A DNA stretch of 64,000 nt from positions 124,001 through 188,000 of the forward strand of contig JAQWUD010000016.1 in assembly GCA_029242325.1 (NCBI GenBank), given 5' to 3'. Of this stretch, positions 31,660 to 54,900 are shown one piece after another. Below the pieces are notes generated by a model. The model made no database searches. It saw only the letters and a list, made by a program, of their open reading frames with translations, and was not told the origin of the DNA. Within the stretch, counting starts at the first letter, position 1. Each line of letters starts with the position of its first letter. The translations under genes were made by a program, and so were the position numbers. The DNA comes from Luminiphilus sp. (GTDB taxonomy: Bacteria > Pseudomonadota > Gammaproteobacteria > Pseudomonadales > Halieaceae).

Positions 31660-32307
31660 CTAAGAATGAACAAACCTTCTTAACACTTTTAAACCAGCAG
31701 GCCCGCTTCTCTCAGGATGGAACTGCAGGCCGACTGTACCGTTTGATGCAGTTGCTGCGACGATAAGATTTTTACCGTACTTACACTGAGCGAGCACATC
31801 CTTAGTGTAAGTAGGTTTAGCCATAAAAGAGTGCACGAAGTAAACAGACTCGTTGGGGGTGAGATCCCCAAGGCACGACTTCTGCCAAGCGCTATGATCT
31901 GTGATTGAACAGAACTCTCGCCAGCCAACGTGTGGTACTTTCAGCTGACGTTGCTTCTCACTCACTGAATTGCCGCGTATGGGTACCACTTCCCCTTTGA
32001 AGATACCCAAACCCTTGTGCTCCCCTAGCTCGGAACTTTTTTCAAACAGCATCTGCATACCAAGACATATTCCCATGAGTGGTAGACTTTTTGAGGCGGA
32101 CACTATCGCTTCATCTAGCCCTTTCTTTCCGATCATAGACATGCCGGCGCTGAAGGATCCAACACCAGGAAGCACGATACGAGATCCTTTTATGACTTGA
32201 CTAGGGCAATCGGTGACCTTCACTTTTGCACCCACAAATTGGAGTGCTCGAACAATGTTGCCGAGGTTCACAATTCCATAGTCAATGACAGTAACTGACT
32301 GGGCCAC
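31660..32307 (-). CDS. hisH: HisH-like glutamine amidotransferase for surface-sugar amidation
   Basis: A 215-residue class-I glutaminase. The nucleophile cysteine is in MGICLGMQMLFE and the His/Glu pair is in GLQFHPERSG, so the catalytic triad is intact. It starts with a GTG at 32307 (product VIDYGIVNLGNIVRAL). In histidine synthesis HisH feeds ammonia to HisF. Here the absence of other his genes and the adjacent sugar amidotransferase indicate that it delivers ammonia for an acetamidino-type modification of a nonulosonic or uronic acid. It is 34 bp downstream of the HisF-like gene. Confidence 0.88.
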   Translation of the reverse strand: MAQSVTVIDYGIVNLGNIVRALQFVGAKVKVTDCPSQVIKGSRIVLPGVGSFSAGMSMIGKKGLDEAIVSASKSLPLMGICLGMQMLFEKSSELGEHKGLGIFKGEVVPIRGNSVSEKQRQLKVPHVGWREFCSITDHSAWQKSCLGDLTPNESVYFVHSFMAKPTYTKDVLAQCKYGKNLIVAATASNGTVGLQFHPERSGPAGLKVLRRFVHS

Positions 32308-32341
32308 TGGCTCCCACCTCTTTACCCTTTATGTGACAACC

Positions 32342-33100
32342 TTATGTCTCTCTGACTCTTATACCTTGAGATTTGCAAGTTGCGCGAATATGCGGCAATT
32401 CGCATTCCGCGTAGTGCAAAACGGTCGCCATCGCTACAGCATCAGCGCCACCTGTTTTAATTACATCTACACAGTGTTGTGTTTTGCCCATGCCTCCGCT
32501 GGCCACCAACGGTATTGTTAAGCCTTTTCCCGCCATCTGCATTAGCTCAATGTCAAATCCTTCTCGGGTGCCGTCCTTATCTACTGAGGTGAGTAAAACC
32601 TCGCCCACCCCCCTTGCTTCTCCTTCTTGTATCCACTCCAGAGCGTCTATCCCACTCGGTTCTCGACCATTGTCGTAATAAGCTTCCCACATACCCCCAA
32701 TTTTTTTAGCTTGTACTGACAGCACTATGCACTGACTTCCAAATTGATCTCTTATTTCGTTTAAGAATTTTGGGCGTTTTATAGCTGCTGTGTTGACTGC
32801 GATTTTGTCGGCGCCAGCTTTTAAAGCCTCACCGACGTCATCAAGGCTTCTGAGCCCACCACCTACTGTTATCGGCACAAATACGTCTTCAGTAGTTTCT
32901 CTTATTATGTCGAAAATACTATTCCTGTCATAAAGGCTGGCGACTGTATCTTCGTAGTAAATTTCATCTATGCCATCTGAGTAATACTGACGAGCGAACT
33001 GCCCAGGTTCACCAAGCTTGCGTAATCCTTCGAATTGTATGCCTTTTACTAAAAAAGGAGCTTTTACATCCAACCGAGCAATCAATCGCGCTTCGTACAC
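32342..33100 (-). CDS. hisF: HisF-like (beta/alpha)8 protein with altered catalytic residue
   Basis: A 252-residue imidazole-glycerol-phosphate-synthase-like barrel with a GTG start. Asp11 (IARLDVKA) is kept. The second catalytic aspartate, expected in a V-x-A-I-D-A-K type motif at position 130, is Gln130 (CIVLSVQAKKIGG). Phosphate-binding loops TVGGGLRS and LVASGGMGK are present. This fits a barrel that still docks HisH and channels ammonia but no longer closes the imidazole ring. The neighbouring amidotransferase would be the acceptor enzyme. A true histidine-pathway enzyme is unlikely. Confidence 0.86.
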   Translation of the reverse strand: MYEARLIARLDVKAPFLVKGIQFEGLRKLGEPGQFARQYYSDGIDEIYYEDTVASLYDRNSIFDIIRETTEDVFVPITVGGGLRSLDDVGEALKAGADKIAVNTAAIKRPKFLNEIRDQFGSQCIVLSVQAKKIGGMWEAYYDNGREPSGIDALEWIQEGEARGVGEVLLTSVDKDGTREGFDIELMQMAGKGLTIPLVASGGMGKTQHCVDVIKTGGADAVAMATVLHYAECELPHIRATCKSQGIRVRET

Positions 33101-33106
33101 CAGGGG

Positions 33107-34381
33107 TTAGGCCCAAACGGAGCTTCGTAAATCCCATTTACCGCCGGTGTTTTTCCAGAGGTGCGGCGAGCGAAACTGATCGCTTAATTGGTCAAAATAT
33201 TCTCGGTTCATTTTTGGTGAAAGAAAGCGGTTACTGGCAACTGGAAACTCCGATGCTTCAATGCTTAAGTACTGGAAAACTTCCCGGCAGAATCGCTCGG
33301 GGAATTCCCCGTCATATTTTTTCACTAGCGCAACGCCCTCTTCCCGAGTGATTTCCCCATTACGTATTTCCTGAGACGCGTCATATGTTGCTCTACCGAT
33401 GCCGAACTTGATGTAAGTGGTGTAGTAGTGGAAGTCATCGATTTTGTCGTCAATGCTATTATATTTGCTGTAGGTGCCAGGACTTCTCTCCGGCGCTGCT
33501 CTAAACCCACCATGTTCTGCAGCATAGTAGTAAGCATTTTGAGGGTGCCAAGGAAGGTAGTATCCTAGGTAGTGAACCTCAATATTCTTGGATTCCATCC
33601 TCTCTGGCGCTATGGGCATATACATAGATAGATCGCCATTGGTAAGACCATACTCGTGTTTTAACTCAGTTAGTGATACACCTCCTAGAAAGAGTTCAGA
33701 GTCCTGAGAAGCGGTGAAATAAGACCAATCCCTTTGCGCCGCAGAGTTGTCTTGCAAAGGATTGCCATATTCAGCCTCATTTTCCCCGAAAAAAACCAAT
33801 GGGATACCTAAAAGCGATGCCATTTTCGGTGCGAGTGCTTTTTGGCCCATCATGAATGGCTGAAAGGGGTGAAATAGATTCTCAACGGCCAGCCTGGTAA
33901 GCAGCCTGTGAGTTTTGGGATTCGGTGTGAGTAGTTGATTATCAAATCCAGCATTCAGCCAAGCTTGGAAGTTGGCCTGCCCCCAATCCGTAGACAAGTG
34001 AGGTGCCCAAGTGACTGTTAAGGGATTCATACCATATTTGTACTTCAGCTTGTGCGCTGCGTAAAAACTGTCTTTTCCGCCAGAGCCTGGAACCAAGCAA
34101 TCATATTCCCCATTTTTTTTTCTGTGCCTGTCGCATAGCACCAGCAACTCTGCCTCCCGGCTTGCCCAGTCGACTAAAGTTTTAGCGTCATTAGCGTTGC
34201 AAGCGTCACAAGTGCCAGATTTATCAAAACTGATTGTCTCTTTTAAACTCTCTTTCTTGTGTTGATACTCAACTGCAGAGTTTGGACGTTGATTTGAGAT
34301 GACACACTTATTGCAAAAAGCCACGTCTTTGGGAAGGCCAAAATAAGGTGATAGCTCAAAAGCGCTGTCACGGCTAACCAT
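33107..34381 (-). CDS. N-acetyl sugar amidotransferase (WbpG/PseA family)
   Basis: An ATP-pyrophosphatase-type amidotransferase. A cysteine cluster CNKCVISNQRPNS opens the conserved part, a second pair CDAC follows, and the PP-loop is CLVPGSGGKDSFYAAHKL. The family adds a nitrogen from HisH/HisF-type partners to N-acetyl groups of LPS or flagellin sugars. The frame is open to a TTG at 34468. The ATG at 34381 (425 residues) was taken because it starts closest to the conserved region, but the N-terminus is unsure since the sequence just upstream looks rearranged. It heads the amidotransferase-hisF-hisH operon. Confidence 0.82.
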   Translation of the reverse strand: MVSRDSAFELSPYFGLPKDVAFCNKCVISNQRPNSAVEYQHKKESLKETISFDKSGTCDACNANDAKTLVDWASREAELLVLCDRHRKKNGEYDCLVPGSGGKDSFYAAHKLKYKYGMNPLTVTWAPHLSTDWGQANFQAWLNAGFDNQLLTPNPKTHRLLTRLAVENLFHPFQPFMMGQKALAPKMASLLGIPLVFFGENEAEYGNPLQDNSAAQRDWSYFTASQDSELFLGGVSLTELKHEYGLTNGDLSMYMPIAPERMESKNIEVHYLGYYLPWHPQNAYYYAAEHGGFRAAPERSPGTYSKYNSIDDKIDDFHYYTTYIKFGIGRATYDASQEIRNGEITREEGVALVKKYDGEFPERFCREVFQYLSIEASEFPVASNRFLSPKMNREYFDQLSDQFRSPHLWKNTGGKWDLRSSVWA

Positions 34382-34448
34382 GCTCCAAGCACCTGCGCGA
34401 GCATCCAAGGCCGCTGCCCCGCGGTAGTAGGCTCCGTTCATGATCCAT

Positions 34449-34487
34449 TCCAATACCGGCAATAACAATTTTATACTTCTTGTACAT
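34449..34487 (-). pseudogene. Possible N-terminal remnant of a nucleotide-sugar dehydrogenase
   Basis: A minus-strand ATG at 34487, preceded by a good ribosome-binding site (AAGGGGAAG), encodes MYKKYKIVIAGIG. This resembles the first beta-strand and glycine loop of UDP-sugar dehydrogenases (usually GxGYVG). The similarity then stops abruptly and the frame ends after about 50 codons inside the amidotransferase gene. It may be the start of a gene deleted when the island was assembled, leaving its translation signal in front of the amidotransferase. The evidence is a short stretch only. Confidence 0.35.
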
Positions 34488-38643: not shown

Positions 38644-41121
38644 TCAGGAAAACATGCGTTCATTTTTTGCGTCATAAAAAGGAGTCAAGCTCACATCAGC
38701 CGACACTGGGTTGCCCTCTATCGCCACCGAGTAAGGCTTCTCGATAGTCGCGGCTTTGGCTGTTGCATCGATCGGGAGGTCGATCAAGCATAATCCTACC
38801 GCGCAATTGAAATGAGCAGAAAATGCCGCAGATGTAACGTAGCCCACTACCTGCCCATCGCAAAGTACTGGCTCGTTGTGGTGCATTAGGGGGGTTGGAT
38901 CATTGAGCTTGATAGCACAAATGTGGGGGCCATTCGCTTCGGATTTTCGTTTCAAGTAGGCCTCTAGGCCGATAAAAGCGGGTGTCTTTTTTGTCTTACA
39001 TACAAAATCGAGCCCTACCTGATGTGGCGCCTCGGTATAGGACATGTCGTGACCCCAATGTCGAAATCCCTTCTCTATTCTGAGCGCATTCAATGCTTCG
39101 GCCCCCAACAGCTGCGCGTCGAACGCTTCTCCTGCCGTCAGGATGATATCTAGCACGTGTGGGGCAAAGTCGGGTGTGATGAAGATTTCCCAGCCTAGCT
39201 CACCCGAATAGGACAGCCGCTGTGCAGTAACCTTTGCGTGGCCAATATGACATTGCTTGATGTAATTGAAGGGGAACGCCTCGTTCGATACATCAATGTC
39301 GGTAATGGCGGCTAGTAGCGCGCGACTCTGCGGACCCATGATGCCCAGTACGCCGTAAGATGCGGTGTCGTCCCGGAGCCGCACATTTTCTCCGGGCTTG
39401 ATCAATCGTTTCAATAACCCTAAATCTCTTCGCGTACGGGAAATAGAACTCATTAACATAAAGCGATCGGTGTCATAGCGGGCCACCGTGGCATCACTCT
39501 CAATACCCCCTCGCTCATTCAGAATCAGAGTGTATGTGACTCGGTTGCACGAGATAGCCATGTCGTTTGTGCATAGGCGCTGCAAAAAGGCCTCGGCGTC
39601 TGATCCTTCGATCATGATCTTGCCCAGCATTGAATAGTCAATAATAGCGACCCGCTCTCGGGCCGCTCGCTGCTCATTAAGTGAAAATTCAAACCAGTTA
39701 GAGCGAGCAAAGCTGTAGTCATATTCCGGCGTCACCCCAGGCGGGGCGTACCAGCCAGGGCGCTCCCAGCCCTGTGTTTCGGTAAAGCAGGCGCCCTTTT
39801 CGGCCAATCGAAAATGAAAAGGTGAGTGCCGAATATTTCGCGCTGTTTGGCGCTGATAATTAGGCCAATGCATTGCGTAGGTGCGAACCAAGGTCTCGGG
39901 GCAGCGCTCCCGAAGATAGATATCTCGGGCCTGAAATTCCTCGCATCGGGCGGGATCCATGGCGCTGAGATCCAGTGTTGGGTGTCCATTAACCAGCCAC
40001 TCTGCCAATGCGCGACCCGCCCCGGGTCCTGTCTGGATGCCTGTGGAATTGAGTCCGGCTAAAATAAAATAATTGCTCAGGTTTGGCGCAGGCCCCAGCA
40101 CGAATTGCCCATCATAGGAGTAGCTTTCAGGCCCATTGAAGAAAGTGCGAATACCTACTTCCTGAAGGATCGGGACGCGATTCATCGCCTTCTCCAACAT
40201 GTCCATTACATCGTCTTCGATAAAAGGTAACGACTCGAAAGAGAACTTTTCTGGAATGCCGTGGATTGCCCAAGGTTTCGCGTGATGATGAGCAAAACCG
40301 AAAAGTAGTTTTCCGGCGTCTTCTTTGAAGTAAGTGCCGTCACAATAGGAGCGAAGCACCGGCAAGTCGTGAGGCAGGGAATCGATGGCCTCAGTGACCA
40401 GGTAGTAGTGCTCACAGGCGTGCAGCGGCACGCCCACACCGTTTTTTTGGCCCAGCGGCCTCGCCCACATGCCACTGCAGTTCACAACGTAATCGGCCAG
40501 AATGGTGCCTTGATCAGTTACCACTCCGGTGGCCTCAGCACCCTCCATCAGCACTTCACGAGCCTCCACACCCTCGAATATCTGAACCTGATTCTGGCGA
40601 GCGCCCTTGGCAAGCGCCATGGTCAGGTCAACGGGATTAGCGGAACCGTCACGAGGCATCAAAATGCCGCCCAGCACATTTTCAGGGTTTATCAGAGGCC
40701 AGCGCTGCTGGATTTGTTCCGTGGTCAAATAGTGCGCCTCGATACCGAATAGGGAGGCAAAGTCAGCCTTTCTTTTCAGTTCTGACAGCCGTTCAGGGTG
40801 AGTAGCGATTGATATCGATCCTGATTCACGGTAGCCCGGATTTTGTCCGGTCTCCGCTTCTATAGAATTGAGGAGCTCCACCGTATATTTTGCGAATGCG
40901 GTAGTGGCATGTGACCCATGCAGCTGTCCAACGAGGCCAGCTGCATGCCACGTTGTGCCGCATGTGAGTTGCCCTTGCTCCAAGAGAACAATATCGCGCC
41001 AACCCAGCTTGCCTAAATGATAGGCAACTGAGCACCCCAGAATACCCCCGCCAATAATGACTACCCGCGCATGTTGTGGCACTGGCTTGACAAAACTCGG
41101 TGGTGAATCCATGGGGTTCAT
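38644..41121 (-). CDS. Dimethylglycine/sarcosine dehydrogenase-like flavoprotein with GcvT domain
   Basis: An 825-residue fusion. The N-terminal FAD-dependent oxidoreductase domain has the dinucleotide loop VVIIGGGILGCSVAYHLG and TTWHAAGLVGQ; His59 is at the position that carries covalent FAD in dimethylglycine dehydrogenase. From about residue 460 a GcvT-like aminomethyltransferase domain binds tetrahydrofolate (ARERVAIIDYSMLGKIMIEG, MGPQSRALL, GELGWEIF). Such enzymes oxidatively demethylate N-methyl amino acids and trap formaldehyde as methylene-THF. The ATG at 41121 overlaps the M24 hydrolase stop. The long upstream extension of the frame lies over that gene and is not coding. It is the last gene of the operon. 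Confidence 0.88.
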   Translation of the reverse strand: MNPMDSPPSFVKPVPQHARVVIIGGGILGCSVAYHLGKLGWRDIVLLEQGQLTCGTTWHAAGLVGQLHGSHATTAFAKYTVELLNSIEAETGQNPGYRESGSISIATHPERLSELKRKADFASLFGIEAHYLTTEQIQQRWPLINPENVLGGILMPRDGSANPVDLTMALAKGARQNQVQIFEGVEAREVLMEGAEATGVVTDQGTILADYVVNCSGMWARPLGQKNGVGVPLHACEHYYLVTEAIDSLPHDLPVLRSYCDGTYFKEDAGKLLFGFAHHHAKPWAIHGIPEKFSFESLPFIEDDVMDMLEKAMNRVPILQEVGIRTFFNGPESYSYDGQFVLGPAPNLSNYFILAGLNSTGIQTGPGAGRALAEWLVNGHPTLDLSAMDPARCEEFQARDIYLRERCPETLVRTYAMHWPNYQRQTARNIRHSPFHFRLAEKGACFTETQGWERPGWYAPPGVTPEYDYSFARSNWFEFSLNEQRAARERVAIIDYSMLGKIMIEGSDAEAFLQRLCTNDMAISCNRVTYTLILNERGGIESDATVARYDTDRFMLMSSISRTRRDLGLLKRLIKPGENVRLRDDTASYGVLGIMGPQSRALLAAITDIDVSNEAFPFNYIKQCHIGHAKVTAQRLSYSGELGWEIFITPDFAPHVLDIILTAGEAFDAQLLGAEALNALRIEKGFRHWGHDMSYTEAPHQVGLDFVCKTKKTPAFIGLEAYLKRKSEANGPHICAIKLNDPTPLMHHNEPVLCDGQVVGYVTSAAFSAHFNCAVGLCLIDLPIDATAKAATIEKPYSVAIEGNPVSADVSLTPFYDAKNERMFS

Positions 41122-42308
41122 GACAGCTTGATGGGCAACTCGGGGGGGGCGCGACGCGATAGCAGCTCCGGACCCGCTTTCCGGATGACGATGTTTTCCT
41201 CGTGCACGATCATTTTGCCCGGCCGATAAAACATTCCGGGCTCCAGTGTCATTACCATGCCCTCGCGTAACACGGTGTGTTCCCACGCGGCAAAGGAGGG
41301 CGGTTCTGTTAACTGAATGCCTAGGCCATGTCCGTATCGACCGACTGTTTCTCCGATAGCGCCTGCTTTCTCTAGGACTGCGTGCATCGTCGAAAAAACT
41401 TGCGCGCAAGTATTACCCGGTCTCGCCATTTTGAGCCCGGCCTCAGTGGCCTGCCACACTGCCTGATACGCTCGCTTGGCGGCGTCGTTAACCGAGCCGA
41501 ATCCATAGTTCCGATCAAAATCACAGAAGTAGCCATCAAAGGTACAACCGGTATCGAAAATCAGCACATCGGCATCTTGAAGGCGACGGCCCGATGGAGG
41601 AGAAATAATGTCGTCATAACCGTGCCGACCGGCGCCTCCCACAAGGTAGGAAACCGTATCCACGCCAGCAGAAAGACACTCCGTCGTAAAAGTCCTGAAT
41701 AATTGCGCATCTGTCATGCCAATGTCAGAGAATAGAAACAACCGGTCGAACACATTGGAGACACATTGAGCGACATATCGAATTTTGTCGATTTCTGATT
41801 CAGATTTAATCATCCGCACCGCACGGATAGCGGGGGTTGCGTCGATCATCTTAAAGTTTGGTCGTGCCTGAGAAAGATTATTGCCGAGCCTCTCAAAGTC
41901 GTTTAGCGGCATGCGAATATGAGTTTCGGAGCCCTTGTTTATGCCAATTACACTTGAGACTGATCGCGACAGCACCTCTAGTAGAGCGTCTGTTAATAAA
42001 CTGATGCCGTCATCCTCAGGATGCGGGGCGGGCCAGCTGCGGATATCCTGTATGAATTCACTGGACATCGCATTGACGCCAATTTCGGGAATCACGGCAA
42101 TAGGCCTTCCCTGGTCGGGAATTATCACGTACCAAGGGCGAGTGGGGCTTTGCCAAAACTGGCTCAGGAAACCAGAAAAATAAAAAATATCGTGCTCGGT
42201 TGTCAGTAGCAGGGCGCCAATCCCTTGCGCGCTCATCTGAGACTGGATCGCGGCCAGCCGCCTGATAAACTCATCAATACTAAAGCCTCGTTTTGGAACG
42301 TCCGGCAT
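41118..42308 (-). CDS. M24-family metallohydrolase (Xaa-Pro dipeptidase / ectoine-hydrolase type)
   Basis: A 396-residue pita-bread-fold enzyme with creatinase-like N-terminal domain and M24 catalytic domain. All five metal ligands can be placed: Asp252 (FDTG), Asp263 (CDFDR), His327 (YGHGLG), Glu356 (LEPG) and Glu370 (VHEEN). It is therefore a metal-dependent hydrolase, unlike true creatinase. Relatives cleave Xaa-Pro bonds or open the ring of ectoine (DoeA/EutD). In this operon it probably cleaves an amide or imide bond of the substrate and feeds the coupled demethylating flavoprotein (4-nt overlap). Confidence 0.83.
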   Translation of the reverse strand: MPDVPKRGFSIDEFIRRLAAIQSQMSAQGIGALLLTTEHDIFYFSGFLSQFWQSPTRPWYVIIPDQGRPIAVIPEIGVNAMSSEFIQDIRSWPAPHPEDDGISLLTDALLEVLSRSVSSVIGINKGSETHIRMPLNDFERLGNNLSQARPNFKMIDATPAIRAVRMIKSESEIDKIRYVAQCVSNVFDRLFLFSDIGMTDAQLFRTFTTECLSAGVDTVSYLVGGAGRHGYDDIISPPSGRRLQDADVLIFDTGCTFDGYFCDFDRNYGFGSVNDAAKRAYQAVWQATEAGLKMARPGNTCAQVFSTMHAVLEKAGAIGETVGRYGHGLGIQLTEPPSFAAWEHTVLREGMVMTLEPGMFYRPGKMIVHEENIVIRKAGPELLSRRAPPELPIKLS

Positions 42309-42327
42309 GCCGTCTCCAGATGAAATG

Positions 42328-43050
42328 TTATAAATCGAGGGGAATTCCCGCTGATCGTGCTAAGTCCCACGCCAACACCTTGTTACTCGAAAGCGCCGTG
42401 ACGCCAGTCTGAGAGGTGATGCTGTCCAGCACGGTTGCGCACTTCATGTTGGTGCAGGCAATAAAAAGTACGTCAATATCGCCATCTGCCGAGGCAATGA
42501 GCTCGATCGCCGCCTGATAAATGGTGTCCGGCGATATCCGCCCTACGACTTGATCGTGTTCTTCGTCGAAGCTGGCTGAGTGCGTAATACTAAAACCCTG
42601 TGACTCAATGTGCTCAATCATAGTTGTGCACACCGGGGTCGAGTAAGGGGCAAGATAGCCAATATTGTTTGCCCCCAGCGATTCGAATGCCAACAGCGCA
42701 GCTTGCATAGGATCGCTGACATAACGAGATTTGCGCTCATTCGTAATCAGCTGTCGGATCCGGTCGCCGCCGATCTGCATGGCGCCAGAGGTGCAGGCAT
42801 AACCGATGGCATCGAAAGCGTGGGCAACAGGAAATAGCGCGGTAGATTGCGTCAGATGAAGGGCCATATCACCCAATGTCTTTTCTGTGACCTCATCTTC
42901 GAAGGGAATGCGGCTCACCAAAAGACTCAAATCTGCGTCCGCAAAATAGCGCCTGAATTCATCCTCTATCGTGACGTCTGATTGCAATACGATCATTCCG
43001 AGACGAATCTGCGCACTCTCGGGAATGAGCTGATAGCCAATCGTCTTCAT
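42328..43050 (-). CDS. Asp/Glu racemase-superfamily protein (maleate isomerase/EutA-like)
   Basis: A 240-residue member of the Asp/Glu/hydantoin racemase superfamily. It resembles maleate cis-trans isomerase and EutA more than classical racemases. Both catalytic cysteines are present: Cys86 in IGYACTSGA and Cys199 in LFIACTNMKCA. The opening MKTIGYQLIPESAQIRLGMIV is typical of the maleate-isomerase branch. It overlaps the upstream lyase gene by 4 nt. In ectoine clusters EutA stands next to EutB, as here. Its reaction in this pathway is unknown; isomerisation of a carbon skeleton or racemisation are both possible. Confidence 0.78.
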   Translation of the reverse strand: MKTIGYQLIPESAQIRLGMIVLQSDVTIEDEFRRYFADADLSLLVSRIPFEDEVTEKTLGDMALHLTQSTALFPVAHAFDAIGYACTSGAMQIGGDRIRQLITNERKSRYVSDPMQAALLAFESLGANNIGYLAPYSTPVCTTMIEHIESQGFSITHSASFDEEHDQVVGRISPDTIYQAAIELIASADGDIDVLFIACTNMKCATVLDSITSQTGVTALSSNKVLAWDLARSAGIPLDL

Positions 43051-44180
43051 ATGTCTCCGCGCATTATGGCGTCGTAGACCGCTGCATCTGTATTGCCCTC
43101 GGTGCCAATGACCAGCACACGAGAGCGACCATCCATACCGACTTCATCGGCGAGTGTGGGATCCTGCTGGATCGCCAATAATGCAATGAGCCCGGACGCC
43201 GAGCACTCTCCCCCTACAATAGCGGGTCTGTCACTCGTTGTGGGGTTTGCGAGCCAGCGCACCATAGGGCCAATACCTTCATCGTTTATGGTGATCACAT
43301 GAGAGACTCCCGCTCTGATGATAGGCCAGGCGAGCTCTGAAACCTCACCGCAGGAGAGACCAGCCATCAGTGTCTCTTCAACAATGTTGACCAGGTGGAT
43401 CTGATCGCGTTTTAAGCTTTGGTAGACGCAGTCTGATTTGTCCGATTCGACAACAATCACCGTGGGTAGGGATGGGCCCCAATGGAGCCACATCGAGGCA
43501 ATCAGGGCCCCCGCCATCGCTCCACAGCCTGCCTGAAGAATAATGTGGGTGGGTTTAGTGTCCCCGAGCTGTTGAATCAGCTCGTGGGTCATGACGGAAT
43601 AGCCGGTCATCACCAGTTTTGGAACATCGCGATAACCTGGCCAAGACGTATCAGAAACGATCTGCCAGCCATATTTTACCGCCTGTTCCCGGCACGCAAC
43701 TATTGAGTCGTCGTAGTTACCCTCCACACGATGGATAGTGGCGCCCAGTGCAGCCAGAGCATCTGCGCGTGCCGCACTGACCTTGGCGTGAATAAAAATA
43801 TGGCACTCTGCTTGACAGAAATCAGCGGCCCAGGCGACCGATCGCCCATGGTTGCCATCTGTGGCGGTGCAGACAACCAATTTATTTTCAGGTGCTTTGT
43901 GCATCAGGCAATCTATGGCGTAGGCTCCACCCAGCGCCTTGAAAGACCCAAGATCAAACCGACCTGATTCGTCTTTGTAAAAGATTTGATCGACGCCGGC
44001 TGAGGCCGCGATATCCGACAAGCTCATCAGGGGGGTGGGCTGATAGCCTTGCCATTGGCTGATAATCCGATGAGCCTCGTCACATTCCTCAGGAGAAAAC
44101 AATTCTCCGACGATATGAGAGGCAAGATTGTTTTGCAGCGGATTGCTCAGTTTCTGTGAATAGGAAAAGCGAGATGACAT
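43047..44180 (-). CDS. PLP-dependent ammonia-lyase, diaminopropionate-lyase/EutB-like
   Basis: A 377-residue fold-type II PLP enzyme. The Schiff-base lysine is Lys81 in RFDLGSFKALGGAYA, a motif typical of 2,3-diaminopropionate ammonia-lyase. The PLP-ring asparagine loop is TATDGNHGRSVAWAA, and the late GLSCGEVSELAW and GTEGNTD complete the cofactor pocket. The expected reaction is alpha,beta-elimination of ammonia from a diamino or hydroxyamino acid to give a keto acid. It is coupled to the racemase-like gene and lies 10 bp downstream of the M20 hydrolase. Confidence 0.82.
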   Translation of the reverse strand: MSSRFSYSQKLSNPLQNNLASHIVGELFSPEECDEAHRIISQWQGYQPTPLMSLSDIAASAGVDQIFYKDESGRFDLGSFKALGGAYAIDCLMHKAPENKLVVCTATDGNHGRSVAWAADFCQAECHIFIHAKVSAARADALAALGATIHRVEGNYDDSIVACREQAVKYGWQIVSDTSWPGYRDVPKLVMTGYSVMTHELIQQLGDTKPTHIILQAGCGAMAGALIASMWLHWGPSLPTVIVVESDKSDCVYQSLKRDQIHLVNIVEETLMAGLSCGEVSELAWPIIRAGVSHVITINDEGIGPMVRWLANPTTSDRPAIVGGECSASGLIALLAIQQDPTLADEVGMDGRSRVLVIGTEGNTDAAVYDAIMRGDI

Positions 44181-44190
44181 GCTTGCTGAA

Positions 44191-45357
44191 TCAGATCGAC
44201 AGCTGCTGCTGCACTAAATGGGTCCAGAACTGCATTCCAGTCACCAATATGTCGTCATTGAAGTCGTAGTGAGGGTTATGCAATGCACAGCCCCCTTCAC
44301 TGTCAGTGCCGTTACCGATAAAGACATAGGCGCCCTTCTTCAGCAGTAACATTTGGCCAAAGTCATCTGAAGCTGTCATGGGCTGGCAGGGATATTCAAT
44401 CAATTTCTCCGCGTTGATGGTGCGCGCCGCAGCCAGTGCATGCTCGGTTTCTTCCGAATGGTTCACCGTGGCATGGAATACACGCGCATAGGAAAACTGG
44501 AGTTCCGCACCATGTGCCTGACAAATGCCGCTGGCCAGTTCGTGTAACCTCCGCTCGATGATGTGGCTGACTTCAGGTTTAAAGCTGCGACAGTCGCCTT
44601 TCAGGGTGACTCTACTGGGGACTACATTAACGGTTCCGTCTGTTTCGATTTCGGTTATCGAGACCACCGCTTGTTCGGCTGGGTCAATCGATCGCGAGGC
44701 GATGGTCTGCATCGCCAAAATGATCTCTGCGCTGATTATTACGGGATCAATGAGCTGATGCGGTTGGGACGCGTGACCGCCTCGCCCAATAATAGTGACT
44801 CGGAAGTTGTCCTCTCCCGCCATGATGGGTCCGGGTGTCAGGGCTATCTGACCAGCTGGGCGGCCTGGTATGTTGTGCATTGCATAAACTGCATCCATGG
44901 GAAATCGATCAAACAATCCGTCCGCAATCATCGCTTCGGCACCGAGGCCATGTTCTTCGTTAGGTTGAAAGATAAAATAAACTGTGCCGTCGAAGTCGAA
45001 CTTTCGAAGTACATCGGCGGCTCCCAGTAACATGGCGCAATGACCATCGTGGCCGCAGGCGTGCATGTGACCATCGGTTTTAGAGCGATACTCGAAGGCG
45101 TTGCGCTCATGGATTTTGAGGGCGTCCATATCGGCCCGAAGCCCAATGGCTTTATCGCTGCTGCCTTTTCGCAATACACCTACCACGCCCGATTGACCGA
45201 TACCGCCGTGGGTTTCTATGCCCATACTGCGCAGTTGCTTTTCGATGAATCCGGCGGTCTCCCCAAGCGCAAACCCTAATTCTGGGCAACGATGCAGAGT
45301 TCTGCGCCAAGATGTGAGCGTGGCGATGTCGGGCTGATTGTATTCTGAGTTGGTCAC
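44191..45357 (-). CDS. M20-family amidohydrolase (hippurate hydrolase/IAA-amino acid hydrolase type)
   Basis: A 388-residue M20D metallopeptidase. It has LRRTLHRCPELGFALGETA-like start (WRRTLHRCPELGFAL), LRADMDAL and the metal site MHACGHDGHCAML with Cys101 and His103. FQPNEEHGLGA carries the catalytic glutamate pair. Members release amino acids from N-acyl or N-aroyl conjugates. The GTG at 45357 puts the start 5 bp after the dioxygenase stop and gives a normal family length. The longer frame upstream lies over that gene. Here it probably deacylates an N-acyl amino acid intermediate. Confidence 0.85.
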   Translation of the reverse strand: MTNSEYNQPDIATLTSWRRTLHRCPELGFALGETAGFIEKQLRSMGIETHGGIGQSGVVGVLRKGSSDKAIGLRADMDALKIHERNAFEYRSKTDGHMHACGHDGHCAMLLGAADVLRKFDFDGTVYFIFQPNEEHGLGAEAMIADGLFDRFPMDAVYAMHNIPGRPAGQIALTPGPIMAGEDNFRVTIIGRGGHASQPHQLIDPVIISAEIILAMQTIASRSIDPAEQAVVSITEIETDGTVNVVPSRVTLKGDCRSFKPEVSHIIERRLHELASGICQAHGAELQFSYARVFHATVNHSEETEHALAAARTINAEKLIEYPCQPMTASDDFGQMLLLKKGAYVFIGNGTDSEGGCALHNPHYDFNDDILVTGMQFWTHLVQQQLSI

Positions 45358-45361
45358 GCGA

Positions 45362-46192
45362 TTAAAAGTTCCTTTTCTGCGCCGCACCACGATACAAGAT
45401 GTCATCCATATTTGTATCTGCCAGCGCCCGATCCGACATCGATACAGGGTCAAGGTCATGGGCGGGGCGACGCAACACTGTATTATTTTTTCGAGGATTA
45501 CGTCCTCTGACGTCCAGCCAGAGATTTTTGCCAATCACCTGCTCTACTTCAGGCGGCATGTAGGACTGCATGGCGAAGCCAACGCGCCGTTTAGTGCTCT
45601 GATTTGGTCGGGAGCCATGAATGATCTTGGCATGGTGGAGCGACATTTGACCCGGTTTCAATATCATATCGACGGCTTGAGTCTCATCGACGTCTATCAC
45701 CTGCTGGCCGCGGGTGAGTATATTGAATTCACCGTAGGTATCTTCATGTTTCACAATCTCGCCGCGGTGTGATCCGGGAATCATCTGCATGCACCCGGTC
45801 GTGATGTTGCTGTCTGTGAGTGCCAACCAAGGTGTCACAAACGTGTCCCTGCTCATACCCATATAGGTCGCGTCCTGATGCCAGCTCACATAATGCGGGC
45901 TCTCTGGGTCTTTGCAGAAGAGCACTGTTCCCCACAGTGAAAAATGAGAGCCCAGTAGATCTTCGACTGCGTCGAGCACCCTGGGGTGGTGCGCCAGCTC
46001 GTCGAGGCACTTAAAAGATAAATGCACGTTGTTGCGCTTGTGTGGATTGGCCCACTCGGGGTATTGCGTTTCTGCGTCTTCCAGACGTTGAAGATACTGT
46101 GCTGCTTCGTCTTCACTTAGCACATCGATAGGCGAGACAAATCCCTGCTCGACATATGCCCTGATTTGCTGCTCTGACAGTACCTTTCCCAT
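45362..46192 (-). CDS. Phytanoyl-CoA dioxygenase (PhyH) family Fe(II)/2-oxoglutarate oxygenase 1
   Basis: A 276-residue cupin-fold oxygenase. The iron triad is His105-x-Asp107 (SWHQDATYMG) and His192 (KIIHGSRPN), with Arg203 in the strand that binds 2-oxoglutarate. TGCMQMIPGSHRGEIVKHED is the usual substrate-lid region. Family members hydroxylate small molecules, including ectoine, or remove N-methyl groups through hydroxylation. It lies 2 bp after the MFS gene and 4 bp before the amidohydrolase. Confidence 0.85.
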   Translation of the reverse strand: MGKVLSEQQIRAYVEQGFVSPIDVLSEDEAAQYLQRLEDAETQYPEWANPHKRNNVHLSFKCLDELAHHPRVLDAVEDLLGSHFSLWGTVLFCKDPESPHYVSWHQDATYMGMSRDTFVTPWLALTDSNITTGCMQMIPGSHRGEIVKHEDTYGEFNILTRGQQVIDVDETQAVDMILKPGQMSLHHAKIIHGSRPNQSTKRRVGFAMQSYMPPEVEQVIGKNLWLDVRGRNPRKNNTVLRRPAHDLDPVSMSDRALADTNMDDILYRGAAQKRNF

Positions 46193-46194
46193 TG

Positions 46195-47433
46195 TCAGGG
46201 TGGGGCCACGAGTCGGTTATGACGGTTGACCCGCCATAAGAGCAGCGTCGCTACGATACCGACAAGTGATATCGCCAACATATAGCTGAATGTGATTTGG
46301 TAGCCCGGCAACCCTGGGTGATTGTCCAGCCAATAGCCAATCAGTGGGTAAGTAAACCCTTCCGGCAGATAACCGATAAAACTCGCTACTCCTACCGCTG
46401 TGCCCATTGTGTGCACGGGCACTTTGGACTCAGCGAATGTGGCGTAAAAATTCCCACGCAGTGCGAACACACATAGTGCCAGGACGATCATAATGTTGGA
46501 TACGATCAAGAGATTCTGTGCCTCGGCAGGGACCATAAGAAGCAGCACCATACAGAGAGCTGATATCAAGAATGCGATGCCAATAACGATCGTTGGACCG
46601 CCTAGTTTATCGGCGATCATGCCACTCAGAGGCGCGCTGATTGCCTGAGTACCATAGGTTCTGAGGATGCCCATCAAGACACCGTAACTCACCACTGCAC
46701 CCATCACGCCCGTCATGTAGGGCGTAATGTAGCTTTGGCTTGCAAATAGGCCGTAGCCACAAAAAATGATGAGGCCGATAATCCAGACTTGGGGATTTTT
46801 GAGCGCTCCTCTGAAATATTTGAGTGCTGACTCGGGCGCTTCGTCGTAGGCGGGATCTTCAAACACGATCCAGATCGACAATCCCGCGGCGATAGTGACT
46901 ACGGCAGAAATATTAATAACCCACATGAGGCCTTCAGGGCCTTCCCCCATTTTCTGAAATACCAATAGCGTAATCATGCCGATGAGGAAGCCCCATACGC
47001 CCCGGCCGCCCTCCAAAAATCCAAACAACCTGCCTTGCTCCGAGTCTGGGCCGAGATTACGGGTTGCTTTGATAAAGGGGGCCCAGAACAAAATCAGAGT
47101 GCTCACGCCCCAAAAACCGTAGAGAATCAGGCCGCCGACATATGAGGGGAACGTAGAGAAATAAAATCCGCTAAGCCCCGTCGCGATCAGCGAGGTAGCG
47201 AGTAGTTTCCGCGGAGAGTAACGATCTGCCAGCCAACCTCCGGGTATGTAGCCCAATGTCGCAGCAACGCCATTCACGGCTTGCATTAGCCCCATCTGTG
47301 TGTGGGATACACCGAGCGCTTCCCTCATCGTGTCGTAGTAGGAATACCTGAGGAAGGGAAAGGTGTACACCATGGCACCAGCAAAGCAGAGCAGGGTGAG
47401 AAGAAGCCATTTATTACGAGGGCGGTCAGGCAT
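46195..47433 (-). CDS. MFS transporter, probable substrate importer of the operon
   Basis: A 412-residue major facilitator protein with 12 hydrophobic helices. The MFS signature after helix 2 is GGWLADRYSPRKLLATS. A second-half counterpart is GMIADKLGGPTIVIG. The ATG at 47433 is inside the last codons of the preceding dioxygenase gene (8-nt overlap) and gives a normal short N-terminus. The upstream extension of the frame is noise. Substrate is not readable from sequence; its place inside the operon suggests uptake of the catabolised compound. Confidence 0.85.
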   Translation of the reverse strand: MPDRPRNKWLLLTLLCFAGAMVYTFPFLRYSYYDTMREALGVSHTQMGLMQAVNGVAATLGYIPGGWLADRYSPRKLLATSLIATGLSGFYFSTFPSYVGGLILYGFWGVSTLILFWAPFIKATRNLGPDSEQGRLFGFLEGGRGVWGFLIGMITLLVFQKMGEGPEGLMWVINISAVVTIAAGLSIWIVFEDPAYDEAPESALKYFRGALKNPQVWIIGLIIFCGYGLFASQSYITPYMTGVMGAVVSYGVLMGILRTYGTQAISAPLSGMIADKLGGPTIVIGIAFLISALCMVLLLMVPAEAQNLLIVSNIMIVLALCVFALRGNFYATFAESKVPVHTMGTAVGVASFIGYLPEGFTYPLIGYWLDNHPGLPGYQITFSYMLAISLVGIVATLLLWRVNRHNRLVAPP

Positions 47434-48325
47434 GACATGCCGTATCTGATTGCATACTTTGCTGCGCGAAGAACGACGTCCCTTGAGGCACTTCTGGCAG
47501 CTCCATTTCATAAGGCGTGCAGCGAACACGCCCCGATGGTTCGCCACGCACCAATTCATGGGTGAGGCGGCTCAGGAGTGCGTTGGGGCTCAGCTCAATG
47601 GCGTCATCTGAGTAGTAGGTGGCAAGGTACAGCGTTCTGGGATTTGCCGACAGATTGCCGGCTGACCCGTGTAGAAGGCTCGAATGCATGAGACAGGCAG
47701 AACCCGCGGCTCCCGTGCAAGTCACGATTTGATCCTGACGTTGCGCAACCACTTCTTCCGCCACTGCGCCCGTAAAGACTCCATCATGCCAGAGTGAGAA
47801 AAGTGGGCCCTTATGCGAGCCGGGCACCACCTGCAAGGGGCCATTCTCCTCCGTCACTGCGTCCATAAATATGAGACAGGTAATCACATCGTCATTACTC
47901 ATCGGCTGGAAGGTGAAGTCTTGATGAAATTTCACTTCAGTGGCCATGCCCGGTCGTTTCGAATTTACCTTGCCGTGATGAAAGCGGATCGCAGGCCCAA
48001 TCAGTTCTGCGCAGATATCTACAGTTCGTGCGTTACGCATCACATGTCTGAATGCCTCGGATATTTCTTCGGGCGATTGGACCCGCCTCAAGCCTGATTG
48101 AGTGCCGGTATGGAGAGGGTCTAGGTCGAACCGAGCGCGTCCATCAAGAGTTTCACCGTAGTCGTCCTGATAAGACAAGCTGGCATCAACCCAGACTGAA
48201 AAATCGCTTCGCAGATTTTCGAGTTCGATCGGAGACAGCGCCTGTTCGACGATAAGGTAACCGTCCCGCCAAAATTGATCTGTTTGGCTAGCAGTGAGCT
48301 GGGTAAGTGGGGGGTTCTCTCTCAA
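47426..48325 (-). CDS. Phytanoyl-CoA dioxygenase (PhyH) family oxygenase 2
   Basis: A 299-residue Fe(II)/2-oxoglutarate oxygenase. The metal triad is His134-x-Asp136 (VKFHQDFTF) and His219 (SSLLHGSAGN). NGPLQVVPGSHKGPLFSLWH is the typical middle motif. It is clearly different from the first PhyH protein in the operon, so two distinct oxidations are likely. The start is a TTG at 48325; no ATG fits. It is the first gene of the eight-gene minus-strand operon. The promoter should lie in 48326-48460, but no clear boxes are seen. Confidence 0.83.
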   Translation of the reverse strand: MRENPPLTQLTASQTDQFWRDGYLIVEQALSPIELENLRSDFSVWVDASLSYQDDYGETLDGRARFDLDPLHTGTQSGLRRVQSPEEISEAFRHVMRNARTVDICAELIGPAIRFHHGKVNSKRPGMATEVKFHQDFTFQPMSNDDVITCLIFMDAVTEENGPLQVVPGSHKGPLFSLWHDGVFTGAVAEEVVAQRQDQIVTCTGAAGSACLMHSSLLHGSAGNLSANPRTLYLATYYSDDAIELSPNALLSRLTHELVRGEPSGRVRCTPYEMELPEVPQGTSFFAQQSMQSDTACHA

Positions 48326-48464: not shown

Positions 48465-48945
48465 GCGGATTTCGTTGCCCGCCTAGCGGCTCTGGTGCCA
48501 AAGCCGAGGGTTAACCTCACCCGCTACCATGGCGTCCTGGCACCGAACCACCGCTGTCGTGGGCTGGTCACACCAGCCAGGCGCGGGAAAGGCATCACGT
48601 CTATCTCCAACGCAGAAGTCCGCACACCCGCCGAGCGCCATGCCGCCATGACCTGGGCCCAGCGCCTAAACCGTGTTCAGTATCGACATCGAGGTCTGTG
48701 GCCGCTGCGGTGGTTCTGTCAGGGTCATCGCCAGCACTGAGGACCAGGACGTCATCGATCGAATGCTGACTCACCTGCGCCAGTAAGAACAGGAAACACC
48801 GACTGGGCCATTGCTGGTGCCACCGACCAGAGCGCCACCTGGGACGTTGCCTCTTTTCGTTGGGAAGGATTCCAGCACAACAGCACTGCATCAGCAGGGA
48901 ATCCAGTGAATACCGCATGGCATGAGCTGTCGCGCGCACCCCTCC
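48465..48945 (+). pseudogene. IS91-family transposase C-terminal remnant (copy B)
   Basis: The fragment encodes DFVARLAALVPKPRVNLTRY, HGVLAPNHRC, GLVTPARRGKG and RTPAERHAAMTWAQRLNRV. After a one-base loss near 48672 it continues as FSIDIEVCGRCGGSVRVIA and ends QDVIDRMLTHLRQ at the stop 48784-48786. This is the usual C-terminus of IS91-type rolling-circle transposases with the CxxCGG zinc motif. The N-terminal catalytic part is missing and the frame is broken. Downstream sequence to about 48945 is probably IS tail and contains a 21-bp stretch shared with copy A. From there to 49120 I see nothing. Confidence 0.82.
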
Positions 48946-51912: not shown

Positions 51913-54900
51913 TTACACTGGCAGAGAGACGTTCATTTGGGATATCTCTCCCCGCTTCATAAAAATACTGTAAGAGAGCATCTTGGGGAGTCGCCTAGAG
52001 GAAAACGTCGATTCCGAGCCGTCTGCTCCATACACTGTGATGGAGGCGGTGTCCGCCTTCTCGAGTATCACCGGCACCTGGCAAATCGTAAAACCCAGCT
52101 GCCCTGCTTCGAGAGCGATCTCTTGTTCAGTAAAGGCAATATCAACATAGCGCAGGATCGCAGGTGCAGAGTGAAACTCTTGTTTACGCAACAATATTGA
52201 ATCAAATAATAGACTACCCTGATCTACTGTCAGACCCAGCTCTGGAAGCCTAGTCAATATCTCCTCCTTAACCTGTCCCGTCATGCCGGGTTGCCTGGCA
52301 CCGGCAAAACCCGGCGTATGCGAATAAGGATCTGTTGGAAACGCGCCATAGACGTCCGGCGTCTTGTTAAAGCCAATGCCAGCGCGAATATCCTCATAAG
52401 CCGATATCAGAGCACTAAGGGTCTGGCTATCGGTTCCGCTGCGATGGCCCGCGATAATCGTCTCACTCACAGCGAGCAGCAGCTTCGACACCATGTGCCA
52501 ATAGATGGAACCGAGGCCTTCATAGGCATACATCCCTCCCGACCGCCCAGTGAATAAATCGTGCCTGAAGGTGTGGATAAAAAGGTCACGTACTTGGGAT
52601 CGTTCGGCCTCACTGAAAGCAAACCCCGAGCCAGTCAGCCGAGTGAGTTCGGCGTCAACATCATCAACCTTGGTTAAGGCGCCATTAAAATGAGCGCCGC
52701 CCTGCTCATCTGTCTCAATCAGATGGGCATGTCCCTCCGCCATGAGCTGCTGCAAGATGGGAATTTGGCTAACCACCTCTGGCGATAACTGATTTTTGTC
52801 AACAAAACGCAGTAACGTTTTGTTGGGATAAAGCAGATATGAGTGCTGGCGAGGTGTGTAGAGCGCGGACTCTCTGAGCGCGCCCAATAAGCGCAGAGAC
52901 TCCTGTGGTGAAAGAACCCCCGCACTCAATACGGCGACCTGACCTTCCAGCATTTCATCTAGTCTGATTAAACGCCCCTGCGCGCCCACAATCTGCACGC
53001 GATGATAGGCATGGTAAAGCGCATCATCCCGGCGATTTTCAGCAATACTGCTACCCAATATCGGCTGAATTAGAGCGACAAATTTTTTGATTGTCTCCAT
53101 ACTCAATTGCAAGCGCTCGCCAGACAATCCTCGATCATAAATACCCTCACGGTAGGCCTCTCCGACACGCCCGAGCTGTTCCATCACCTCAAAGCGCAAC
53201 GTATCGGTCACCGCACCCGTCACGAGTGCTGCACCCTTCTCTTCAAGGACTCCGTATACACCATCAAAAAGGCAGACAACTTCGCGCGACACAGGTATCG
53301 AATGATCTGCCGCTCCAAAGAGTAACCCTCGCATGACGGTAAAAAATCGATAGAGGTAACACAGGGTCACGACCGATACGCCTGTGCCCACTAGCGCGTT
53401 GTTGGCATCGTTCCATTCGGGTCTCTGCGTATTCATCCAGATACCGCCGCCAGGAATGAAATTCGTCAGCTTCGCGAGGCCCGTTACCAGTAGCTTCTCA
53501 AGCAGATTGACCTGATACACCTGCTCACCCACCCACAACAACCTCCCATCGGCACCCGTCTCGCTCACACGAAGGGAGATGGCTGCATCCAGCTTATAAT
53601 CGAATGTGATGGTGTTGTGTGGATCGGCAAGCAGCGCGTCAAAATCTTTGATGCGATAGGGCACATTTGCATAGGCGAAGAAATCTGAGCTAAGCAAACT
53701 CGAGAGGGCAGTGGGGAAATGGCTCTGTGCCAACTCGAGCAACTTAAGCAAATAGATGATCTGGTGATCTCCCCAGTAGCCAATATTGGCCCACGGGTTG
53801 TCTGCCTCAGGTCGCTCCCAATCGATACCTTCTCGCGTGATGCGATACGGATTGTAGCCATCGGCAGTCGTAGCACTCACAAACTTGCAGATGATATTTT
53901 CAACGTACCCCGGAGTCGCAGCGGACAGCGCTTCCCAATTCTGAAAAATGTCCCGCCAATTGCCCGCGAATGACAGGCGCTTACCGCCCTGTTCATCCAG
54001 CACATCAATTGAAAAGTGGTTCCAAGGGCGCGACGGGTCACCGTGACGACGACTGAATGTGAGCGGGAGGTACTCCAGGAACAATCTGCAAAGCTGCAAA
54101 CTCCCTTCCGTCCAGATCCTTTCACGAAGAACCAAATAATCAATTCCCTCGGGCATATCTGCCGTGAGCACCTGAATTTTGGGACCCGCGTTTTTATTCC
54201 AGGCGCCGCAAAACTCAATCAAATCGGCTTTCGAGAGCAAATAATTACGGTCAAAAATCCCGCCGCGCATAGCATTAAACATCACGTTCGCGGTGTGATG
54301 CGCGGTGCTCAGACGTTCCGACGTCGATTGAAAACCGTCCGCGCTACCGACGATCTCACCGAGGCGTGATCGCCCGGTCGCAATGTCACGCTGCACACTC
54401 GACCCGATTTCCCGATCGCGCGAGATCTGTTGAATCAGATTCGCGACATCTGCGGGGCCCTGATTGACATCGGCAACGATGGACCAGCCACGTTCCACTC
54501 CCGCATCGAGCGTCAAGCTGTCTGAGACAAAATAAGCACCGCGGCGTCCGTGAACATCCTCCTCCAGCGCAACCTCGAAACCCCGTCTGAACAATTCGAC
54601 TTGAGAGGAACACAGTAAGTGCTGCGGAGAGGCGAGACCGTAGGACCAGGCGACCGTCGCCGAGAGCCCCTCGCTGGGCTCCGCCCTGTCTGTCAGCAGC
54701 GAACTCATCGAGTAGGTAGCGACCCCCGACCCCACGTCGAGTTCATTCTTTTTGTAGGCATCGACCAGACAGCTCAGTTCATTCTGAATGCCCGGGCTTG
54801 CTCCATAGGGCAGTATATTCTCTATACCGTCGAGTAAGCGTATGCACCTTGTTCGGCTCCCATGATTAGCGAGTGACGAACGCTTGATAAAGCCAAAACG

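Follow-up and report, generated by a model that had tools for sequence, protein, structure and literature searches.

The window analyzed here, a stretch of 64,000 nucleotides from Luminiphilus sp. (contig JAQWUD010000016.1 of assembly GCA_029242325.1), carries an operon of eight open reading frames, all on the minus strand, at positions 38644-48325. We lean toward the view that this operon serves the import and catabolism of a compatible solute resembling ectoine, a zwitterion based on a diamino acid that is N-acylated (or forms a cyclic amidine) and in this lineage also carries N-methylation. Three proteins make up the core: a diaminopropionate ammonia-lyase-like pyridoxal phosphate (PLP) enzyme (DAL), an M24-fold protein with a metal site, and a EutA-like protein. 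The module built around this core is apparently a widespread, undescribed variant of ectoine-type osmolyte catabolism. Literature searches listed no paper evidently describing it; one of the listed papers may nonetheless contain a description.

Organization of the operon

The first gene in the direction of transcription encodes PhyH1 (47426-48325), an Fe(II)/2-oxoglutarate oxygenase of the Pfam family PhyH that is related to EctD and amino acid hydroxylases. It is followed by genes for an MFS carrier (46195-47433; Pfam MFS_1), a second and distinct Fe(II)/2-oxoglutarate oxygenase termed PhyH2 (45362-46192; PhyH), an amidohydrolase of the M20 family resembling DoeB2 and aminoacylases (44191-45357; M20 and M20_dimer), DAL (43047-44180; PALP and NF006058), the EutA-like protein, a two-cysteine member of the racemase/isomerase superfamily (42328-43050; Amdase, the EutA superfamily), the M24-fold protein (41118-42308; Creatinase_N and M24), and a flavoprotein resembling dimethylglycine dehydrogenase (DMGDH) with a tetrahydrofolate domain (38644-41121, with a start at either 41121 or 41112). 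The spacings in this order were -8 (PhyH1/MFS), +2, +4, +10, -4, +19, and -4 (M24/DMGDH) bases. They rest on the start judged best among the in-frame candidates of each gene; the ATG at 47433 of the MFS gene was picked from several in-frame starts, and the GTG start of the M20 gene was picked by position. The first-pass annotation had described eight tightly packed minus-strand genes, among them two different PhyH oxygenases, a racemase relative with two cysteines, an M24 protein with all metal ligands, and a DMGDH-like flavoprotein with a tetrahydrofolate domain. All of this agreed with the Pfam assignments, the spacings, and the motifs reported below.

Conservation and distribution of the module

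All eight genes were found in identical order, at 62-72% protein identity, in a Hellea metagenome-assembled genome (locus L021), which belongs to the Alphaproteobacteria. As the gene order is kept in another class, the operon is more than a product of chance; co-transcription of unrelated genes by coincidence, in favor of which it can be said that the relatives possess differing subsets of the eight genes, is scarcely credible. In Luminiphilus locus L031, seven of the eight genes were present. PhyH1 was missing, and a search for its remnant gave only a 26% match located at the PhyH2 gene. Arenicella (L030) had six genes, two of them divergent, and Cocleimonas had DAL-EutA-M24, in some cases with an adjoining Lrp gene.

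A first scan with the EutA-like protein as the query yielded 11 loci. Among 244 sampled genomes of the host order, only 10 (host included) gave a match at E 1e-10; outside the host, the top match was 36% identical. The patchy occurrence together with the identity across classes suggests horizontal transfer of the operon. When an M24 profile was applied at E 1e-80, matches were obtained in 17 of the 369 genomes sampled from the host class, taken to be Gammaproteobacteria, with the host counted, and in 54 of 385 sampled Alphaproteobacteria, Hellea included. Sixty loci were retrieved from the 71 genomes. One of them, L067, has M24 with no DAL or EutA-like match; counts over 59 loci leave it out and counts over 60 add it. 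Within 3 kb of M24, DAL was encoded in 32 and the EutA-like protein in 34 of the 60 loci (both in 22, either in 44). M20 was located within the same distance in seven and PhyH1 in three of 59 loci.

Several of these sets reside on plasmids. M20-DAL-M24-EutA and M20-DAL-M24, each with Lrp, were observed on plasmids of Aliiroseovarius and Phaeobacter, respectively. A plasmid of Roseovarius pelagicus combines M24-DAL-M20 with GntR, EutA, DMGDH, Lrp, and Ehu-type ABC genes. Sets on plasmids of Photobacterium and Vibrio are linked to TRAP genes, that on a plasmid of Vibrio cortegadensis is linked to a BCCT gene, and those on plasmids of Sinorhizobium and Agrobacterium are linked to ABC genes.

The M24 protein is neither EutD nor an ordinary peptidase

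The five metal ligands of the M24 protein, Asp252, Asp263, His327, Glu356, and Glu370, were unchanged in 16 aligned rows. In Rhizobium DoeA (row L037), a canonical EutD, four of the positions are occupied by different residues and the fifth falls in a gap. The M24 protein scored 68 bits against the EutD model TIGR02993, below the cut-off of 613 bits. The motif FWQSPTRPW of the window protein conforms to FWxSPxRPW, which marks the subfamily.

The relatives are annotated as Xaa-Pro peptidases, and the fold neighbors of a predicted structural model (mean predicted local distance difference test score, pLDDT, of 78.3) included PepE, EutD, prolidases, creatinase, and DddP. Loops 49-56, 127-134, and 322-339 of this model, around the FWxSPxRPW motif and the metal histidine, had pLDDT values below 50. 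PepE and prolidases being among the closest folds, and an aminoacylase-like gene lying in the same operon, one might think of a generic salvage of peptides or N-acyl-amino acids. However, the HE-motif histidine that follows the metal histidine is replaced by threonine (Thr334-Glu335, unchanged in 16 rows), and the upstream PH histidine of PepE and a prolidase is likewise replaced in the aligned M24 protein. We take these histidines outside the metal site to be the catalytic ones of M24 peptidases (His243 and His361 of APP). As the module moreover coexists with ectoine genes, such a salvage function is very unlikely. For M24, the amide hydrolysis proposed in the first-pass annotation remains conjectural, the peptidase histidines being replaced. 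Judged by its conserved residues, the M24 protein is neither an ordinary peptidase nor EutD.

A second M24 protein that has lost most metal ligands is encoded in Roseovarius pelagicus (L034, 18114-20675, and L061, 4121-10596). Its cluster also holds a EutA/arylmalonate-decarboxylase-like gene and sarcosine oxidase genes.

The module is linked to ectoine genes and to ectoine- and betaine-type transporters

Among the 385 Alphaproteobacteria, a EutD-type gene, defined as a match at E 1e-80, was present in 40 of the 54 genomes with M24 and in 11 of the 331 without it (odds ratio 83, uncorrected for relatedness or lifestyle). Of 64 M24-EutD pairs located in the same genome, six were within 20 kb and three within 5 kb of each other, compared with 0.7 and 0.17, respectively, expected at random placement. 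In five sampled genomes, ectoine genes were found no more than about 16 kb from M24. In G812 and G905, the order was DAL-M24-EutA-EutD-EutE, with one extra open reading frame between EutD and EutE in G905. In G772, M24-EutA was near EutD and Atf. G609 has, over a span of about 18 kb, EutD, EutC, EutB, Atf, and Ssd followed by DAL, M20, M24, EutE, AsnC, and Ehu-like genes, EutD and M24 being about 12 kb apart. In G786, EutB-EutC-EutD-EutE-AsnC-Ssd-Atf was located 7.5-15 kb from DAL-M24-EutA. Cocleimonas flava has DAL-EutA-M24 plus a separate EutD-EutE pair, and G131 has a EutA-DMGDH pair with EutD-EutE also present in the genome. As several genomes have EutD and EutE close to M24, and G609 has M20 close to EutE, we deduced that the module exists in parallel with the ectoine route and is not a simple replacement for it.

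Transporter genes pointed in the same direction. The best matches of the TRAP receptor encoded beside the module in Vibrio were 3fxb, 3gyy, and 2vpn, presumably the ectoine receptors UehA and TeaA. The ABC receptor of Roseovarius, whose gene adjoins genes annotated as ehuC, ehuD, and ehuA, matched best to 2q88, which we take to be EhuB. A glycine betaine receptor of the OpuAC type and a BCCT carrier were other transporters adjoining the module. Regulators were also linked to it: a divergent GntR-UTRA gene adjoins the Hellea operon, and Lrp genes accompany the sets named above. The synteny check in other genomes suggested by the first-pass annotation thus returned the complete Hellea operon, linked regulators, and transporters of the ectoine and betaine type. 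Its wider interpretation is partly supported: synteny, transporters, and co-occurrence bear out the view of one catabolic operon with a relation to ectoine use, and amide hydrolysis by M24 is conjectural.

A closer relation to the ectoine pathway is conceivable. The operon might be a variant for the degradation of ordinary 5-hydroxyectoine (or ectoine), in which DAL takes the place of EutB, M20 that of EutE, and M24 that of EutD/EutC. M20 indeed resembles DoeB2, the core shares operons with EutD and EutE, PhyH1 is a distant relative of EctD, and no EutD was found in the host or in Hellea. Nonetheless, we consider this possibility unlikely. Among the genomes with EutD, EutC was present in 17 of 40 with M24 and in 3 of 11 without M24 (p 0.49), i.e. 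M24 and EutC co-occur and are not mutually exclusive; on this ground, the idea that DAL simply stands in for EutB was rejected. G609 and G786 possess EutB, EutC, EutD, and EutE besides the module, and the demethylase would be without a role in the use of hydroxyectoine. Canonical ectoine catabolism was ruled out by the profile cut-offs and by the separate EutD-EutE pair of Cocleimonas flava.

Within positions 33001-56000 of the window, canonical ectoine proteins matched only the M24 gene (EutD, 91 bits) and the EutA-like gene (EutA, 102 bits), and no tblastn match at E 1e-5 was obtained there with EutB, EutC, and EutE as queries. EutB was not found over the cut-off in the host genome either, the best match reaching 253 of 413 bits. 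A search for ectoine synthase matched none of 14 genomes, with the control likewise giving no signal.

Several observations weigh against the function that we favor. Over the curated cut-off, EutD was found in only 23 of the 385 Alphaproteobacteria; the association of M24 with EutD ignores relatedness and lifestyle; 58 of the 64 pairs are farther than 20 kb apart; and the best matches to EutD in the host genome itself were 56 bits (M24) and 51 bits, the cut-off being 613. Around M24, neither DAL nor the EutA-like protein was encoded within 3 kb in 16 of 60 loci, and plasmids of Mesorhizobium and Bosea carry M24 without an annotated DAL or EutA-like neighbor (in Bosea with Ehu-annotated genes). 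The peripheral genes are rare within 3 kb of M24: a DMGDH-like gene occurred in 4 of 59 loci, just two of which have one that falls into the window's clade, PhyH2 in one (42% identical), and the MFS type of the window in none. Conversely, L038 and L051 have DMGDH of the window's clade with no M24 in the fetched stretch. Finally, the PLP enzymes of L070 (G609) and L091 (G812) contain SAGNHG where DAL of the window has TDGNHG. As these two enzymes are devoid of the motif with the diaminopropionate ammonia-lyase (DAPAL) aspartate, the lyase reaction may be different at these loci.

The M20, DAL, and EutA-like enzymes

M20 passed the broad amidohydrolase model TIGR01891 (317 bits, cut-off 154) and remained below the cut-off of the DoeB2 model NF038260 (312 bits, cut-off 550). 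YxeP was its best solved relative. The first-pass annotation had listed EutC, an AstE-type deacetylase, and the usual regulator as missing. For EutC this held true in the region searched. The absence of an AstE-type enzyme is less telling, because NCBIfam includes, as DoeB2, a deacetylase that is of the M20 type and belongs to the ectoine route. The regulator is absent only locally, as several relatives have a GntR-UTRA or Lrp gene next to them; the GntR protein of Hellea had no match at E 1e-3 in the window and five other stretches of the host genome.

DAL passed the diaminopropionate ammonia-lyase model NF006058 (410 bits, cut-off 276) and fell below TIGR03528 (288 of 532 bits) and TIGR01747 (267 of 274 bits). 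Its best solved match was the diaminopropionate ammonia-lyase 4d9g, an insert of which is missing in DAL. Lys81, Asp108, and Asp177 of the DAPAL motifs are present, and we assume that they represent the catalytic PLP lysine and the two catalytic aspartates. The EutA-like protein scored 137 bits against the EutA model TIGR02990 (cut-off 318). Its catalytic-type cysteines, Cys86 and Cys199, were unchanged in 10 aligned rows, and the best solved relative of a profile built from EutA-like proteins was maleate isomerase.

The oxygenases and the methyl branch

Both oxygenases were below the cut-off of 336.5 bits of the NCBIfam EctD profile, with 67 bits for PhyH1 and 24 bits for PhyH2. The solved structure nearest to PhyH1 was 7dzz; the ectoine hydroxylase 4mhr ranked fourth, and the leucine hydroxylase 5nch was also among the nearest. 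The HQD motif at position 134, His219, and Arg230 of PhyH1 were unchanged across five aligned rows. PhyH2 has its HxD-type motif, also HQD, at position 105, and its best solved relative was 6zyk. A function of PhyH2 as a halogenase was ruled out by the retained HQD motif. The host genome of 2.76 Mb encodes ten PhyH-family proteins. In another locus (L057, 7775-9880), a PhyH protein with 30% identity to PhyH1 adjoins a divergent EutD (43% identical to Rhizobium DoeA).

The DMGDH-like protein possesses all DMGDH domains (DAO, FAO_M, GCV_T, and GCV_T_C) and the motif TTWHAAGL, which presumably provides the FAD-linking histidine. Its best solved relative was the rat DMGDH 4pab (452 bits). It was 57-78% identical to the proteins of L021, L031, L034, L038, L062, L082, and L051 and only 31% and 46% identical to two other copies examined from the host, which has four proteins with an FAO_M domain, that of the operon included. 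The two examined host copies are arranged in tandem amid genes that by eye resemble those for MttB, corrinoid proteins, and methyltransferases (L122, C4:1000-20000), a region that is a probable betaine demethylation system of the host. A gene for a putative cyclase-family hydrolase (Pfam Cyclase) directly follows DMGDH in Luminiphilus (L031, 11410-12252); none is found beside the operon of the window.

M24 was only 48-49% identical to that of the window in L034, L062, L063, L069, and L082, loci in which DMGDH, PhyH1, or both are present. DMGDH was 66-69% identical in L034, L062, and L082, and PhyH1 was 66-70% identical in L021, L062, L063, and L069 (67-70% in the latter three). As M24 has diverged, yet PhyH1 and DMGDH are close, we deduced that PhyH1 and DMGDH stayed with a diverged core. 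This recurrence suggests that the substrate is N-methylated, as the first-pass annotation had assumed.

A methylated substrate could also be a compound of the glycine betaine type conjugated through an amide, which M24 and M20 would cut, with the methylated glycine part passing to DMGDH. In Roseovarius pelagicus the module is near genes for choline dehydrogenase, a Rieske protein, and sarcosine oxidase, OpuAC and BCCT transporters adjoin relatives, and L062 and L069 have a betaine-type ABC system, with a receptor that belongs to OpuAC (Pfam) in L062 and was grouped by sequence in L069. Such a conjugate would, however, leave the linkage to ectoine genes, DAL, and the EutA-like protein unexplained. 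In addition, a search of the host for a full-length SoxA was unsuccessful, the best match (204 of 1164 bits) being DMGDH itself. We therefore regard the conjugate as improbable. Homarine catabolism was set aside, as we presume a misfit of its gene families.

Proposed pathway and its significance

For the ectoine-like diamino acid that we favor as the substrate, a sequence of reactions can be proposed by analogy to the ectoine pathway, using the roles given in the parts of PMC13188858 and PMC5924519 drawn on here, in which the EutABC steps are themselves described as proposals. The MFS carrier would import the substrate. PhyH1 and PhyH2 would oxidize it at an N-methyl group or the beta-carbon, and the DMGDH-like enzyme would transfer a remaining N-methyl group to tetrahydrofolate. 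M24, a putative non-peptidase metalloenzyme, would open or hydrolyze a ring or amide as the counterpart of EutD acting on ectoine. M20 would take off the acyl group, the EutA-like protein would correct a stereocenter, and DAL would convert a 2,3-diamino acid into a 2-oxo acid by eliminating ammonia. We infer the substrate, the order of the steps, and each single reaction from protein families, motifs, and gene linkage.

A more specific substrate can be imagined, although we consider it doubtful. The module might degrade a natural five-membered-ring homologue of ectoine, an imidazoline-4-carboxylate based on 2,3-diaminopropionate, of which the window operon would handle the N-methylated form. 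M24 would open the ring, M20 would deacylate the product, DMGDH would demethylate the resulting N-methyl-2,3-diaminopropionate, a compound of the beta-methylamino-L-alanine (BMAA) type, and DAL would form pyruvate and ammonia. No paper naming BMAA together with DAL was found in the literature search. If this idea were true, a new class of marine osmolytes would emerge along with its pathway.

The frequency of the M24 marker (17/369 and 54/385) would point to a nitrogen-rich solute often met by bacteria, for which no gene link was found. Because the module parallels the ectoine pathway and, in a few genomes, sits within it, it may help to clarify the proposed EutABC steps. Knowledge of the substrate would make a branch of organic nitrogen cycling testable, and a new name would be due for the M24 subfamily, which is annotated as Xaa-Pro peptidase.

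Surroundings of the operon

The host is probably a marine bacterium, and the named organisms with the most similar proteins belong to Luminiphilus, a gammaproteobacterium. With a G+C content of 0.53 versus 0.54 for the window, the operon was not an outlier. Scans for promoters and terminators gave no excess over shuffled sequences (8 versus 10.0 and 13 versus 10.1). Just upstream of the operon, at 48465-48850 on the plus strand, lies a Y2_Tnp transposase remnant, presumably of the IS91 type, that is split over two frames; PF04986 covers 27 residues of one piece (24.9 versus 20.9 bits). On the minus strand at 31660-34468, a glutamine amidotransferase, a HisF-like protein, and a third protein without a Pfam match (WbpG-like by eye) are encoded, which looks like a surface-sugar amidotransferase set. 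A protein of 1150 residues with no Pfam match at E 0.001 is encoded at 51913-55365, also on the minus strand.

Comparison with known systems

The systems most similar to the module are EutABCDE and DoeABCD of Sinorhizobium, Ruegeria, and Halomonas. They share with it an M24-fold ring hydrolase, a EutA-type protein, a fold-II PLP lyase, and a deacetylase, and relatives of the module have the same kinds of Lrp/AsnC regulators and Ehu or TRAP transporters. They differ in that M24 of the module retains the metal ligands lost by EutD, its lyase resembles DAPAL and not EutB, and an M20 enzyme stands in place of the AstE-type deacetylase. The module moreover has additional oxygenases and a demethylase, the window is without EutC, and in other genomes the module coexists with EutDE.

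The individual enzymes can likewise be set against characterized relatives. DAL agrees with YgeX/DpaL in the PLP lysine, both DAPAL-motif aspartates, and a score above the NF006058 cut-off, but it is below TIGR03528 and TIGR01747, lacks the insert of 4d9g, and is found in another operon context. The flavoprotein of the window has the full domain set of DMGDH (4pab), the 452-bit match, and the FAD-histidine motif, whereas it forms a clade of its own, apart from the two MttB-linked copies of the host, and is encoded in the context of the M24 core. DddP, which keeps a metal site, and creatinase are non-peptidase members of the M24 family that employ the pita-bread fold on small nitrogen or sulfur osmolytes, as M24 of the module would; their identity to the module protein is only 15-20%.

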